A stretch of 64,000 nt of DNA from Selenomonas sp. GACV-9 (lineage in GTDB: Bacteria; Bacillota; Negativicutes; Selenomonadales; Selenomonadaceae). This document shows positions 39,678 to 62,858 of the stretch, piece by piece. The stretch spans positions 62,001-126,000 of the forward strand of contig FPAX01000002.1 of NCBI GenBank assembly GCA_900116485.1, written 5' to 3'. A program made the position numbers and the translations under genes. Within the stretch, counting starts at the first letter, position 1; each line of letters starts with the position of its first letter. The notes under the pieces were generated by a model. That model did no database searches. It was given only the letters and a program-made list of their open reading frames with translations, and was not told the origin of the DNA.

Positions 39678-39756
39678 GCAAATCCCCCTCTTCAGCAGCC
39701 AGCTGCTTTTCATAAGCTTATCATAAATACATTGTAACAACTGTGTCAAGCTGCCG

Positions 39757-40158
39757 CTAACGCATAGCCTTGCTGATCATCAGCCGGTTACAACCATCAC
39801 GATATTCATACTGCATGCTGTCCACGTTCTTCTTGGCCAGGAAAATCCCCAAGCCGCCTCCCTGGCGCTCCTCTAAGCGCAAGGTAATATCAGGGTCCTG
39901 CCTTTTCAAGGGGTCATAGGGCAGCCCTTGATCGATAAACGTCAGTTCCAGCCGCGAAGATTCCGGCTGCCAAAAACCTTCAATCGTCACATCGCCTGTC
40001 TCGGCGCCATACGCATAACTAGCAATATTGACAAATATTTCCTCCACCGCCAGATCCAGCTGAAAACGTTTCTGCGACGAAATCTCCTGCTGCGCCAGCA
40101 GGCTGTCCACAAATGCATTGACCTGTGGAAGATTATCCACCTCTGCCTTAAGCTGCAT
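39757..40158 (-). CDS. Anti-sigma-factor-type serine kinase/ATPase (RsbW/SpoIIAB-like)
   Basis: This 133-residue HATPase_c_2 protein resembles RsbW and SpoIIAB, which bind and phosphorylate a STAS antagonist and hold a partner protein. The N box LDLAVEEIFVNIASYAYG (ATP/Mg-binding Glu and Asn), the G1-type DQGLPYDP and the G2 loop GGGLGIFLAKKNVD are all present. ATG 40158 is preferred since AAGGAAGG lies 6 bases upstream; an earlier ATG at 40200 overlaps the STAS gene. The upstream STAS protein is its natural partner. No sigma factor gene adjoins it. Confidence 0.88.
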   Translation of the reverse strand: MQLKAEVDNLPQVNAFVDSLLAQQEISSQKRFQLDLAVEEIFVNIASYAYGAETGDVTIEGFWQPESSRLELTFIDQGLPYDPLKRQDPDITLRLEERQGGGLGIFLAKKNVDSMQYEYRDGCNRLMISKAMR

Positions 40159-40183
40159 CTCATGCCTTCCTTCCCCGCAGGAT

Positions 40184-40489
40184 TCACTCTGCTGATTCAA
40201 TCGTCAAAAAGCTGCTGAAACCAGTCATCTCGAATATATCGCGCACATTATCACCTACATGGATAAGTTTCATTTCCCCCAGATGCTTCATGCGTTTTTG
40301 AGCAATCAAAAGGGAATGGAGCCCCGCCGATGCGATATACTCGAGCCCGGCAAGATCCAGGATCAGCTCCGTGACTCCATCGAGTTCCTTTTCCAGCAAG
40401 GTATTGAACTGTGGTGCCGTGACCGCATCCATCCTGCCGGACAATGCCAGTTTCAGCGTCGTTCCCTGTCGTTCCTGCTTGATATCCAT
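40184..40489 (-). CDS. STAS-domain anti-sigma-factor antagonist
   Basis: The 101-residue protein is a single STAS domain like SpoIIAA/RsbV: LKLALSGRMDAVTAPQF at the start, LILDLAGLEYIASAGLHSLL with the phosphorylatable serine (S58 or the adjacent position), and a C-terminal segment. When dephosphorylated such proteins sequester the kinase partner. It lies 27 bases downstream of the condensation/CNB gene and 25 bases upstream of the HATPase gene, so the three form one operon. Output partner unknown. Confidence 0.9.
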   Translation of the reverse strand: MDIKQERQGTTLKLALSGRMDAVTAPQFNTLLEKELDGVTELILDLAGLEYIASAGLHSLLIAQKRMKHLGEMKLIHVGDNVRDIFEMTGFSSFLTIESAE

Positions 40490-40516
40490 AACTGTCTGCT
40501 GCTCCTTTCAAGTCCT

Positions 40517-42367
40517 TCAGGACTGTACCCAAAGCCGTTGATATTTTTCCATCTGCCGGCAAAGATGCTGGATCACACTCTGGGCTACGGCTGGTTCTTT
40601 GCGCAAGATGCTCTCCATGGTAATCCTCGGGACAGCCAGCAGCATTGCCTGCTCGGTCAGAATCTCCAGCGCCAAGTTTATCTTGCGTTCCGGCAGCAGG
40701 ATCATCTCATTGACCCAGGAGTTCTCTGCCAGGATGTCGAGGGTATTGTACCAGCCATCGCCTGTCTCTATGCTGCGAGCCACTTTGCCCCGCACAACGA
40801 AAAGGAACTGTTCATCGACATCCTTGCCGATGAACCTGTCACCTTCATAGCATGGCAAGAGCTTGGCGGTTCCCGCGAAAGACTGCACCAATCCCTTTTC
40901 GCAAGACTGGAGCAGCTGCAGACGAGACAAGGCATCCAATAGTTCCATCCGGACGAAAGCATACTCTGCCGGTTTCTGCCTGCTGTGCTCCTGCCAATTC
41001 TCCATGAATTTGCGGTAGTCCAGATGCCAGTCCGTCAGCATCTGCCGCAGGATCTGTCCGTAATCCTGAGCGAGCTTTCCTATCCCTTCCGGCGTGAAAT
41101 ACAAGCTGTTATAGGCAAACGTGATCGCAATCTCTTTTTCTCCATAACGGAAACGCAAACCCAGACACATATCGCGGATATCCACGACCTCCTGGGTCAC
41201 GATATTCCCATCGGCATTTCCTTGGCGCTGCGAATAGCCAGCCTCCTCTTGGAAGAAATCGCTGAAATTCAGCACATGGTCAAAATCCGTTTCGTCCTGT
41301 CCCATGATAGCCCGTATATCTTCACGCCCCAGCGCTGCATACGAATGCGCCACCCGGAACTGCTTGAGCACCTGGTTGACAATCTCCTGTACAGCAGGTT
41401 CGCCCTCTACCCGCAGACGGAAGGGCAGCAGGCTCTGACTGCCTCGCGCCCCATTGCGGCTCGGCGCCAGCAGGCAAAAAGCCACATCCTGGCATTCGTT
41501 CTCTCCCTGCAGCAAGAGCCCCCACGCAGTCTGCAAGATAGACAGCAGCACCATCTTGTTATCCTTTGACAGCTTCCGCAGTTCTGACAAGACATCACCA
41601 GGAATATGGGTCAGATAGCTCTGCATCCTTCCCTGCTTTCCTGCCGCCAGTACAGCAGGTTTATTCACACAGTAAGGGATACGAGCAGGCGGTGGCAACT
41701 CGCTGAGCAGCTGGCTCCAATACTTGCGGATTGGTTCGGCGAGTCTCACCGTCCCAACTGGCGGAACGGCTGCCTTCTCCAGCGGCATATTCCTAAGCGC
41801 GCGGAAGATATTGCTCACATTGAAGCTTGCGATTACCGCCTGCACGCCTGTGACCACCACCGCGTATTCTTCCACGCCGGTATGGTAGACGGCAAACCGC
41901 AGCAGGCTGCCATGCCGCAGGTCAAAACCCTGACGCAGATCAGCCTCCATCAGTCGGCGCAGGTTGTCATCGAGATCCTGCCCCGTAAGCTTTTCGAGAT
42001 TACGATACATGATCTCGGGCAGGTCGCGCCGCTCCTTGAATACTATCGCTCGCATCTCCCGGCCCACGCAGCAGAAATTGAGCCGCAGGATATCTTCATG
42101 CTCCGTCAGGGTCCGGATTGCCAGATTGAACCGCAAGGGCAACAGGCTTCCCTGAAACTTATACAGGATCTGGCGCAACGGACTTACAGGTATGGCTGCC
42201 TCTCCCTGTGACAAAACCTGCTGCTCTCCCTCAGTCAGCTCCCTGACATATTCTATCCGATTGGCTGAGTACCCCCAACGTTCATCTACCTGGGCACCGT
42301 ACAGCTGGCGAAGGATTTCCTGCTGCTCTGCTGGCAGCTCTGCAACATCCCATTTACGCACATTCAT
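40517..42367 (-). CDS. Degenerate NRPS condensation-domain protein with C-terminal cyclic-nucleotide-binding-like domain
   Basis: The 616-residue protein has two parts. Residues about 40-460 follow the NRPS condensation fold: EHEDILRLNF (motif C2), FDLRHGSLLRFAVYHTG, LLPFRLRV (C5 region), and HSYAALGREDIRAIMG and FDHVLNFSDFF near the end. The catalytic HHxxxDG is replaced by TGVQAVI, so amide-bond formation is unlikely. Residues about 470-616 look like a CRP-type cNMP-binding domain (DRFIGKD, QFLFVVRGKVAR, WVNEMILLPERKINLALEIL). The usual phosphate-binding cassette is altered and no DNA-binding helix-turn-helix follows. The STAS and HATPase genes downstream suggest a signalling role. No signal peptide or membrane helix is seen. 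Confidence 0.7.
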   Translation of the reverse strand: MNVRKWDVAELPAEQQEILRQLYGAQVDERWGYSANRIEYVRELTEGEQQVLSQGEAAIPVSPLRQILYKFQGSLLPLRFNLAIRTLTEHEDILRLNFCCVGREMRAIVFKERRDLPEIMYRNLEKLTGQDLDDNLRRLMEADLRQGFDLRHGSLLRFAVYHTGVEEYAVVVTGVQAVIASFNVSNIFRALRNMPLEKAAVPPVGTVRLAEPIRKYWSQLLSELPPPARIPYCVNKPAVLAAGKQGRMQSYLTHIPGDVLSELRKLSKDNKMVLLSILQTAWGLLLQGENECQDVAFCLLAPSRNGARGSQSLLPFRLRVEGEPAVQEIVNQVLKQFRVAHSYAALGREDIRAIMGQDETDFDHVLNFSDFFQEEAGYSQRQGNADGNIVTQEVVDIRDMCLGLRFRYGEKEIAITFAYNSLYFTPEGIGKLAQDYGQILRQMLTDWHLDYRKFMENWQEHSRQKPAEYAFVRMELLDALSRLQLLQSCEKGLVQSFAGTAKLLPCYEGDRFIGKDVDEQFLFVVRGKVARSIETGDGWYNTLDILAENSWVNEMILLPERKINLALEILTEQAMLLAVPRITMESILRKEPAVAQSVIQHLCRQMEKYQRLWVQS

Positions 42368-42485: not shown

Positions 42486-42520
42486 AAAAAATTCCCTTCA
42501 GGAAAATCCTGAAGGGAATT
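42486..42520 (-). terminator. Terminator of the propionate operon
   Basis: AATTCCCTTCAGGA (42490-42503) and TCCTGAAGGGAATT (42507-42520) pair perfectly; on the minus strand a T6 run follows. Confidence 0.9.
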
Positions 42521-42544
42521 CTTACTCTCTATAGCGATCTATGA

Positions 42545-60821: not shown

Positions 60822-62858
60822 TTATTTCTTCGGTGGCAGGCTGCCATCGAGTTCCAATATCATATCGCGAAGCTCTGCGGCCCGCTCGAATTCCAGTGCC
60901 CGGGAGGCCTGCTGCATCTCGCGGGTAAGGGTCTTGATGAGGTTTTCCTTGTCCTTCTTGGTGAGCTTTTTCTTCTTGCGCTTGCCATCGGCAGAATAAT
61001 CCGCGGAAGATTCTGCCACCAACGTCGTTTCGATAAGCGGCTTGATGGGCTTCTTGATGGTCTTGGGCACGATGCCGTGCTCGTTGTTATAGGCCTGCTG
61101 GATTTCCCGGCGGCGCTCGGTTTCATCAATGGCCCGTTTCATCGAGTCCGTGATGCGATCCGCATACATGATGACATGGCCATTGGCATTGCGCGCCGCC
61201 CGGCCGATAATCTGGATAAGGGAGGTATCCGAACGCAAAAAGCCCTCCTTGTCGGCATCGAGGATGGCGATAAGGGAAACTTCCGGCATATCGAGGCCCT
61301 CGCGCAAAAGATTGATACCCACCAGCACATCAAACTCGCCAGCGCGCAAATCGTGGATGATCTCAGCGCGCTCAATGGTGGCGATGTCCGAGTGCAGATA
61401 GCGAACCTTGACACCTGTTTCCTTCAGGTAATCGGTGAGGTTTTCGGCCATTTTCTTGGTCAGCGTCGTGACCAGCACGCGCTCGTCCTTCGCGATGCGA
61501 ATCTTTATCTCTGCCAGCAGATCATCAATCTGTCCCTCCAGAGGACGTACCTCAATCTCGGGGTCTAACAGTCCCGTCGGACGGATAATCTGCTGGGCGA
61601 CCTGCTGGGCTTTACCCAGCTCGTATTTGCCTGGCGTAGCCGAAACGTAAATAATCTGATTGATGCGCGCGGCAAACTCCTCGAAGGTCAAGGGCCGGTT
61701 ATCAAAGGCCGAGGGCAAGCGGAAGCCGTTTTCCACCAGGGAAACCTTGCGGCTGCGGTCACCAGCGTACATCGCATGGACCTGAGGCAGGGTGACATGG
61801 GACTCATCCATGACAATCAGGAAATCCTCCGGGAAATAGTCGAGCAGCGTATAGGGCGCATCCCCGGCCTTGCGGTGAGTGAGATGACGCGAGTAGTTTT
61901 CGATACCCGAACAGTAACCCATTTCCTGCATCATCTCGAGGTCATACTTGGTGCGCTGCTCAATGCGCTGTGCCTCCAAGAGCTTCCCCTGTTGCTGGAA
62001 CATTGCCACCTGCTGCTCCAGCTCCGTGCGGATATCCGCCATGGCAATCTTGAGATCTTCATCCTCGGTGACATAGTGGGAAGCCGGGAAGACCATCACA
62101 TGGGTGCGCTCGCCGTAGACCTCCCCTGTAACCACATCAAATTCCACCATGCGGTCAATCTCATCACCGAACAGCTCAATGCGCACTGCCCGGTTGTTAT
62201 AGCCGGCGGGGAATACCTCCACCACATCGCCGCGCACCCGGAACCGGCCGCGCTCAAAGGCGATGTCGTTGCGCTCGTAACGAATCTGCACCAGCTTGCG
62301 CAGGATAGCCTCCCGTTCCACCTCCTGCCCCTTGTGCAGGGAAAGCACCATCTCATGATAGCTCTCTGGGGAGCCTAAGCCATAGATGCAGGAAACCGAG
62401 GCCACGATGATGACATCACGCCGCTCGAACAGGGAACAGGTCGCCGAGTGACGCAGTTCATCGATTTCATCGTTGATGGAGGAATCCTTTTCAATATAAG
62501 TATCCGTCGAGGCGATATAGGCCTCAGGCTGATAGTAATCGTAGTAGCTGACAAAGTAGCCGACGTAATTGTCCGGAAAGAAGGTCTTGAACTCACTGGC
62601 CAGCTGAGCCGCCAAGGTCTTGTTATGAGCAATGACCAGCGTCGGCTTCTGCACTTTCTCAATGACCTTGGCTATGGTATAGGTCTTGCCGGTACCAGTG
62701 GCGCCCAACAGCACCTGGGCATCCTGGCCATTCGTGATGCCCGCCGCCAAATCGTCGATAGCCTGGGGCTGGTCGCCCATGGGGGCAAACGGTGCCACCA
62801 CCTTGAAGGGAATATTCGTATCGAATTGGGTTGTATTCAGTTTCGGCACCATCGCCAT
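60822..62858 (-). CDS. uvrB: Excinuclease ABC subunit B
   Basis: UvrB (678 residues) is the damage-verifying helicase that loads UvrC. It has Walker [16 protein letters not shown] (near 46), the beta-hairpin region ([20 protein letters not shown]), the DESH box ([11 protein letters not shown]), the C-terminal helicase half ([18 protein letters not shown]) and the UVR motif [18 protein letters not shown] that binds UvrC. ATG 62858 follows GAGGAGG; an earlier start would add 46 unlike residues. The promoter -10 region is identical to that of ctsR. Confidence 0.97.

Follow-up and report, generated by a model that had tools for sequence, protein, structure and literature searches.

Domain organisation of the three-gene unit

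We analysed a window of 64,000 nucleotides (the whole stretch of DNA studied, positions 62,001 to 126,000 of contig FPAX01000002.1 of Selenomonas sp. GACV-9) and describe within it one short unit of three genes on the minus strand (42367-39757), encoding a 616-residue fusion protein, a 101-residue STAS protein and an HATPase, which we discuss as parts of a candidate partner switch, i.e. a phospho-switch in which an HATPase alternates between a STAS protein and a target. The unit of fusion protein, STAS protein and ATPase was already recognised in an initial annotation made from the nucleotides alone and is confirmed here:

40517..42367, minus strand: fusion protein of a condensation fold and a cyclic-nucleotide-binding (CNB) fold, 616 residues (domain search and predicted structure)
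40184..40489, minus strand: STAS anti-anti-sigma-type protein, 101 residues (Pfam 4.1e-15; TIGR00377 67.4 bits, cut-off 53.45)
39757..40200, likely start 40158, minus strand: RsbW/SpoIIAB-like HATPase (Pfam HATPase_c_2, 4.9e-21)

The fusion and STAS genes are separated by 27 bases, AAAGGAG preceding the STAS start, and with its start as listed the HATPase frame overlaps that of STAS; a start at the well-placed ATG at 40158 would put 25 bases between them.

The fusion protein is predicted to retain a condensation fold devoid of the catalytic histidines

The predicted structure of the fusion protein retains the whole condensation fold at high confidence as judged by Foldseek and VIA, the top VIA row for this part being SgcC5, a stand-alone condensation enzyme. 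The first Foldseek and VIA lists for the full-length protein covered the condensation part only, and we therefore folded the CNB part alone for a separate structure comparison. The features of both parts are:

40973..42262, minus strand: condensation-fold part, about residues 36-465 (structure model, Foldseek)
41825..41845, minus strand: VQAVIAS, residues 175-181, at the position of HHxxxDG (alignment with four non-ribosomal peptide synthetase (NRPS) condensation domains and 21 family rows)
40520..40972, minus strand: CNB-fold part with a long C-terminal helix, residues 466-616 (own model, Foldseek, VIA)
40664..40717, minus strand: phosphate-cassette region WVNEMILLPERKINLALE, residues 551-568 (column counts over 36 rows; register relative to CRP set by hand)

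None of the 21 fusion-family rows has either His of the HHxxxDG motif, in contrast to the four NRPS rows, all of which have HH. The DG of the motif is kept only in L074 and in one of the two L073 copies, and in the closer family rows the C4 stretch following the motif is shortened. Adenylation or carrier domains are found neither within the 616 residues nor among the 14 proteins scanned between 34031 and 48358. The fusion protein looks CATALYTICALLY DEAD, and the absence of the HHxxxDG histidines makes peptide-bond formation of the ordinary kind unlikely. The initial annotation was thus right, as far as a predicted fold and the 14 scanned neighbours can tell, in proposing a condensation fold without adenylation or carrier domains nearby; its loss of HHxxxDG stands as well, and its register, TGVQAVI, has to be shifted by two residues to VQAVIAS.

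These data bear on the possibility that the fusion protein has enzymatic activity of an altered kind, e.g. as an acyltransferase using other residues, and that the switch times this activity. The complete, confidently predicted fold and the resemblance to the stand-alone enzyme SgcC5 would suit such an enzyme, but the loss of both histidines throughout the family, the shortened C4 stretch of the closer rows and the lack of an adenylation or peptidyl-carrier gene among the scanned neighbours lead us to regard it as quite improbable.

For the CNB part, the fold proposed initially is likewise found in the structure prediction, being of CRP type, and the proposed departure from the canonical phosphate cassette is supported by the column counts. 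Over 36 rows W551, N553, L558 and E568 are invariant and position 554 is Glu in 31, and there is no conserved Arg-Ser pair at the places assigned to it by hand, and not by structure alignment, relative to E. coli CRP, these places being occupied by Lys (12), His (9), Arg (7), Asn (3) and hydrophobic residues. This suggests that binding of cyclic nucleotide monophosphates (cNMPs) of the ordinary kind is unlikely, and the earlier proposal of the fusion protein reading a cyclic nucleotide finds no support in the cassette residues.

STAS protein, HATPase and phosphatase

The switch parts, STAS and HATPase, look alive judging from their conserved residues. The likely phosphorylation site of the STAS protein is encoded at:

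40328..40330, minus strand: codon of Ser54 (invariant in 10 of 10 STAS rows)

Ser54 would be the equivalent of SpoIIAA Ser58. The HATPase matches HATPase_c_2 with 75.5 bits, and its motifs EExxxN, DxGxP and GGxG are invariant in all eight rows compared. No gene of this genome scores above the TIGR02980 cut-off for SigB/F/G, and the full-length sigma factor matches are two in number, one of RpoD type and one of FliA/WhiG type.

There are four SpoIIE-domain matches in this genome (G000), the best being a dCache-HAMP-SpoIIE protein at G000:C15:513575-515761, and a phosphatase of this architecture adjoins the fusion gene in other genera. In a tree, the phosphatases of G000, G001 and G012 form a clade of their own, apart from a 14-row clade containing most of the fusion-linked or switch-linked ones, and against a profile without the row of this genome's phosphatase they score 749.7-765.6 bits, like proteins of genomes devoid of the fusion. 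We had initially counted a close phosphatase (at least 890 bits) in 16 of 17 fusion genomes versus 1 of 43 others. This count is withdrawn, the first row of the profile being this genome's own phosphatase, and neither the count nor the phosphatase part of the tree test described below is used because of this row and of the separate clade.

Some of the switch proteins occur in other arrangements. Phosphatase and HATPase form a single protein of 863 residues in G010 and G011 (L085:7225-9816, minus strand; L086:5218-7809, plus strand), the HATPase also lies within open frames of 847-884 residues in genera g42 and g39, and a MatE transporter with a C-terminal HATPase_c_2 domain is encoded near the switch phosphatase and HATPase at L007:3578-5332 (plus strand) and L085:10627-12375 (minus strand).

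In two genera gene order places the fusion at the position of a sigma factor

A scan of genome contigs with the alignment yielded 29 fusion loci, all from Selenomonas, Anaerovibrio, Schwartzia or uncultured Selenomonadaceae, Veillonellaceae and Selenomonadales; the single-protein query found no relative. A profile search of a large protein set gave the 21 family proteins and NRPSs; it scored only 7994 candidates and thus says nothing on absence outside Negativicutes.

The switch genes adjoin the fusion gene in several orders. In Anaerovibrio the order is DUF3737-MatE-aminotransferase-HATPase-STAS-phosphatase-fusion, in L007 and L071 phosphatase-HATPase-fusion-STAS, in L014 fusion-HATPase-STAS, in L066-L070 fusion-STAS and in L028 STAS-fusion; L001 and L002, the closest relatives, carry the fusion gene at the same site with no adjoining STAS or HATPase gene. 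All four loci fetched from genus g3 (L196-L199) show the order phosphatase-STAS-HATPase-fusion, with divergent switch genes scoring 56-64 (STAS), 66-68 (HATPase) and 310-320 bits (phosphatase) against our profiles, and two of the nine loci fetched from genus g7 (L160, L161) show STAS-HATPase-fusion. In the five of these loci examined for it, the STAS and HATPase genes overlap by four bases, GTGA in L196, L198 and L199 and ATGA in L160 and L161. In the classical operon the order is spoIIAA-spoIIAB-sigF, and the target gene is the last one in both sigF and sigB operons. The STAS-HATPase-fusion order of these g3 and g7 loci is that of spoIIAA-spoIIAB-sigF, with the fusion gene at the sigma factor position.

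We extended this to 60 further loci, hand-picked from family-genome search matches outside the window's genus, some repeating loci of the 29, with matches such as G107 left out and only the first of tandem copies counted. In 25 of these, one or more switch genes lie in the same orientation no further than 5 kb from the fusion gene, STAS in 24, HATPase in 16 and phosphatase in 19, so that linkage in relatives, which the initial annotation had singled out for checking, gives a mixed picture.

The fusion family itself is variable. Tandem pairs of fusion genes are found at L179:6869-10552, L185:6688-10424 and L073:8079-11880 (all minus strand), and a second S. ruminantium paralogue (L013:7420-9863, plus strand) has as neighbours a small gene weakly matching acetyltransferases, the gene of a LysR regulator and that of polynucleotide phosphorylase. 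At L078:3024-4833 (minus strand) of the G016 assembly the fusion is split into two overlapping frames beside an intact STAS gene, another copy being full length. Open frames of 349-378 residues in genus g42 (e.g. G148:C7:49582-50556) align with the fusion profile over its N-terminal third, and the G148 short relative also matches the CNB part, the middle of the condensation fold being missing. An NRPS of G051 (L077:5775-17999, minus strand; 4075 residues in the fetched stretch) with four condensation, three adenylation and three carrier stretches has a reductase domain and, after it, a CNB domain (43.5 bits, over the Pfam cut-off) at its end; we do not propose it as the origin of the fusion. 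A conserved gene of about 206 residues lies 3' of the STAS gene in many Selenomonas (L071:9907-10527, L007:10205-10828, L014:10690-11316, plus strand); it has no Pfam or NCBIfam match and is present in 14 of 60 relatives and absent from this genome. Its resemblance by eye to a degenerate HATPase is unsupported by profile comparison (probability 1%).

Fusion, STAS and HATPase tend to occur together

Among 60 relatives, this genome included, 17 have a strong fusion match. A close STAS gene is present in all 17 and in 1 of the 43 others, a close HATPase gene in 15 of the 17 and in none of the 43, the two misses being genomes that are 79% and 81% complete. Genes adjoining fusions, including those of the window, had served to build the STAS and HATPase profiles; with the window's rows left out its STAS and HATPase proteins still score 135.8 and 179.4 bits, above the thresholds. 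Extending the comparison to 151 Selenomonadaceae genomes, we find fusion and close HATPase in 62, the fusion only in 13, the HATPase only in 4 and neither in 72, corresponding to a close HATPase in 62 of 75 fusion genomes versus 4 of 76 fusion-less genomes (Fisher 3e-24, uncorrected for kinship).

In an rpoB tree covering 35 genomes of the family and 5 others (40 in total), the state of the fusion changes at least five times, and in three independent, well supported pairs the STAS gene follows the fusion in an average of 2.9 of 3 and the HATPase gene in 2.5 of 3. The clearest single case of joint presence and absence is provided by G000, G001 and G012, having all three genes, in G001 and G012 at two separate places, compared to their sisters G009, G018 and G019, which have no close-type fusion, STAS or HATPase and carry the biotin-carrier gene beside the znuA-type gene at the fusion site.

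Several observations weigh against the fusion protein as the target of the switch. The thresholds (120 bits for STAS, 150 and 130 bits for HATPase, E 1e-90 for the fusion) were set after the scores were seen. Thirteen of the 75 fusion genomes lack a close HATPase, five of them (G075, G095, G107, G115, G122) having, by coordinates, an HATPase of lower score immediately upstream of the fusion, and four genomes have a close HATPase and no fusion. With only three independent supported pairs, significance is out of reach. The window's HATPase misses the curated RsbW/SpoIIAB cut-offs (24.8 of 145 and 15.9 of 135). The dCache-HAMP-SpoIIE protein of this genome, though of the right architecture, falls outside the fusion-linked clade, and with its row left out (749.7 bits) scores no better than those of the fusion-less G009 (765.9 bits) and G019 (772.1 bits). 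For 35 of the 60 further loci, no switch gene was found in the same orientation up to 5 kb from the fusion gene. Finally, distant full-length homologues in G037 and G048 have unrelated genes around them, in genomes without an HATPase match, and the fusion protein can therefore exist without a STAS-HATPase switch.

The homologues lacking an HATPase and the 35 unlinked loci are what would be expected from plain co-inheritance, according to which the genes are together by descent and chance neighbourhood with no direct interaction, and this explanation gains from related genomes not being independent and from the tree test comprising three pairs only. It does not account well for switch genes adjoining the fusion in several orders and genera, nor for G001 and G012, in which the fusion gene is located apart from the STAS-HATPase pair although the sisters G009, G018 and G019 lack both. 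We therefore judge it to be hardly probable.

The fusion protein as candidate target of the switch

The lack of a SigB/F/G gene over the cut-off, the sigma factor position of the fusion gene in g3 and g7 and its joint presence and absence with STAS and HATPase together suggest that the fusion protein is held by the HATPase and freed by the STAS protein, thereby being the target in place of a sigma factor, a reading that we favour tentatively, with a chance not far below even. The partner-switch context proposed by the initial annotation stands; judging from the gene order of the two genera, the fusion protein is more probably the output than the sensor it was taken for, and the target supposed to be unseen has, by the same gene order, a candidate in the fusion protein itself. 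In complete clusters the dCache-HAMP-SpoIIE phosphatase is more probably the sensor.

We consider it unlikely that the fusion protein is instead an input, binding a ligand and tuning the switch via the STAS protein, the HATPase or the phosphatase, with RpoD, FliA or an unseen protein as the HATPase target. Its gene is the last one in g3 and g7, the target's position in sigF and sigB operons, and the dCache-sensor phosphatase already gives an input in complete clusters. An input role would be in line with both parts of the fusion protein being ligand-binding folds, with the genes of RpoD and FliA/WhiG type present in this genome and with the Chlamydia Rsb network, reported to act on the main sigma factor (PMC4552016).

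Taking the fusion protein as the target leads to a model according to which the HATPase, as long as there is no signal, would phosphorylate the STAS protein at Ser54 and hold the fusion protein. On a signal, probably an extracellular small molecule sensed by dCache, a SpoIIE-type phosphatase, in complete clusters the dCache-HAMP-SpoIIE protein, would dephosphorylate the STAS protein, which may then capture the HATPase resulting in release of the fusion protein. The freed pseudo-condensation fold would make no peptide bond and might bind an acyl, aminoacyl or carrier-bound ligand or another protein, the CNB part presumably serving dimerisation or binding a non-cNMP ligand. In evolutionary terms, we hold it possible rather than probable that Selenomonadaceae swapped the sigma factor of an RsbW-type switch for an NRPS condensation domain that has gone out of use and is joined to a CNB domain, the signal freeing a binding effector and not eliciting transcription. 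If true, a biosynthetic catalytic fold would have been converted into the output that a phospho-switch releases, and in rumen bacteria, to which many Selenomonadaceae belong, one signalling route would not lead to sigma-driven transcription. Database entries named "condensation domain-containing protein" with no surrounding synthetase would then be explained as well, and caution would be advised against counting these as biosynthetic genes.

Genomic neighbourhood

The genes around the unit are ordinary, encoding upstream a methylmalonyl-CoA mutase, a B12-binding protein, MeaB, a glyoxalase-family protein, a carboxyltransferase and a biotin carrier, and downstream a ZnuA-type protein, CtsR, a UVR-motif protein, a guanido-phosphotransferase and a Clp ATPase. 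Two putative regulatory sites flank the unit, each from a consensus scan only:

42487..42523, minus strand: terminator-like hairpin of 17 pairs between the biotin-carrier gene and the fusion gene, 5' of the unit (5 such sites found in the scan versus 2.6 expected from shuffles)
39720..39749, minus strand: promoter-like site, 11/12, downstream of the unit before the znuA-type gene (1 found versus 2.1 expected from shuffles)

Comparison with known systems

Our literature search found no paper dealing with the fusion protein or with a partner switch in which one partner is a condensation domain. Compared to sensors of the CRP/FNR type such as GlxR and HcpR, the fusion protein ends with a helix and has no DNA-binding domain following the CNB part, and the Arg-Ser pair is not conserved at the cassette positions assigned by hand. 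It differs from NRPS condensation domains and SgcC5 by the loss of both HHxxxDG histidines, the shortened C4 stretch, the lack of a synthetase around it and the attached CNB part. An analogy for the proposed use of the condensation fold in protein binding, not catalysis, is the X-domain of glycopeptide synthetases, a condensation-like domain docking P450s, and 6m7l is among the 50 Foldseek rows for the fusion protein. Unlike the X-domain, which is part of a synthetase, the fusion protein stands alone beside a phospho-switch, with neither a synthetase nor a P450 gene among the 14 scanned neighbours (no P450 search of the whole genome was made).

The unit resembles the SpoIIAA-SpoIIAB-sigma F and RsbU-RsbV-RsbW-sigma B switches in its STAS protein with an invariant serine, its HATPase with intact nucleotide-site motifs, the SpoIIE-type phosphatase of complete clusters and the STAS-HATPase-third gene order of two genera. 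It departs from them in that the third gene encodes a condensation/CNB fusion and not a sigma factor, in the lack of a SigB/F/G match over the cut-off in this genome and in the window's own order fusion-STAS-HATPase. STAS/HATPase switches without a SigB/F partner are known in several bacteria, some of the targets being called unknown in passages of PMC8256260. With the BtrUVW, SypA/SypE and HmpUVW systems described there the unit shares the set of STAS protein, kinase and phosphatase with an output that is not a sigma factor or not known as one. In contrast to these systems, for which those passages of PMC8256260 do not describe the folds found here, one candidate target for a STAS/HATPase switch lacking a SigB/F partner can be named from gene order and co-occurrence, the condensation/CNB fusion protein.

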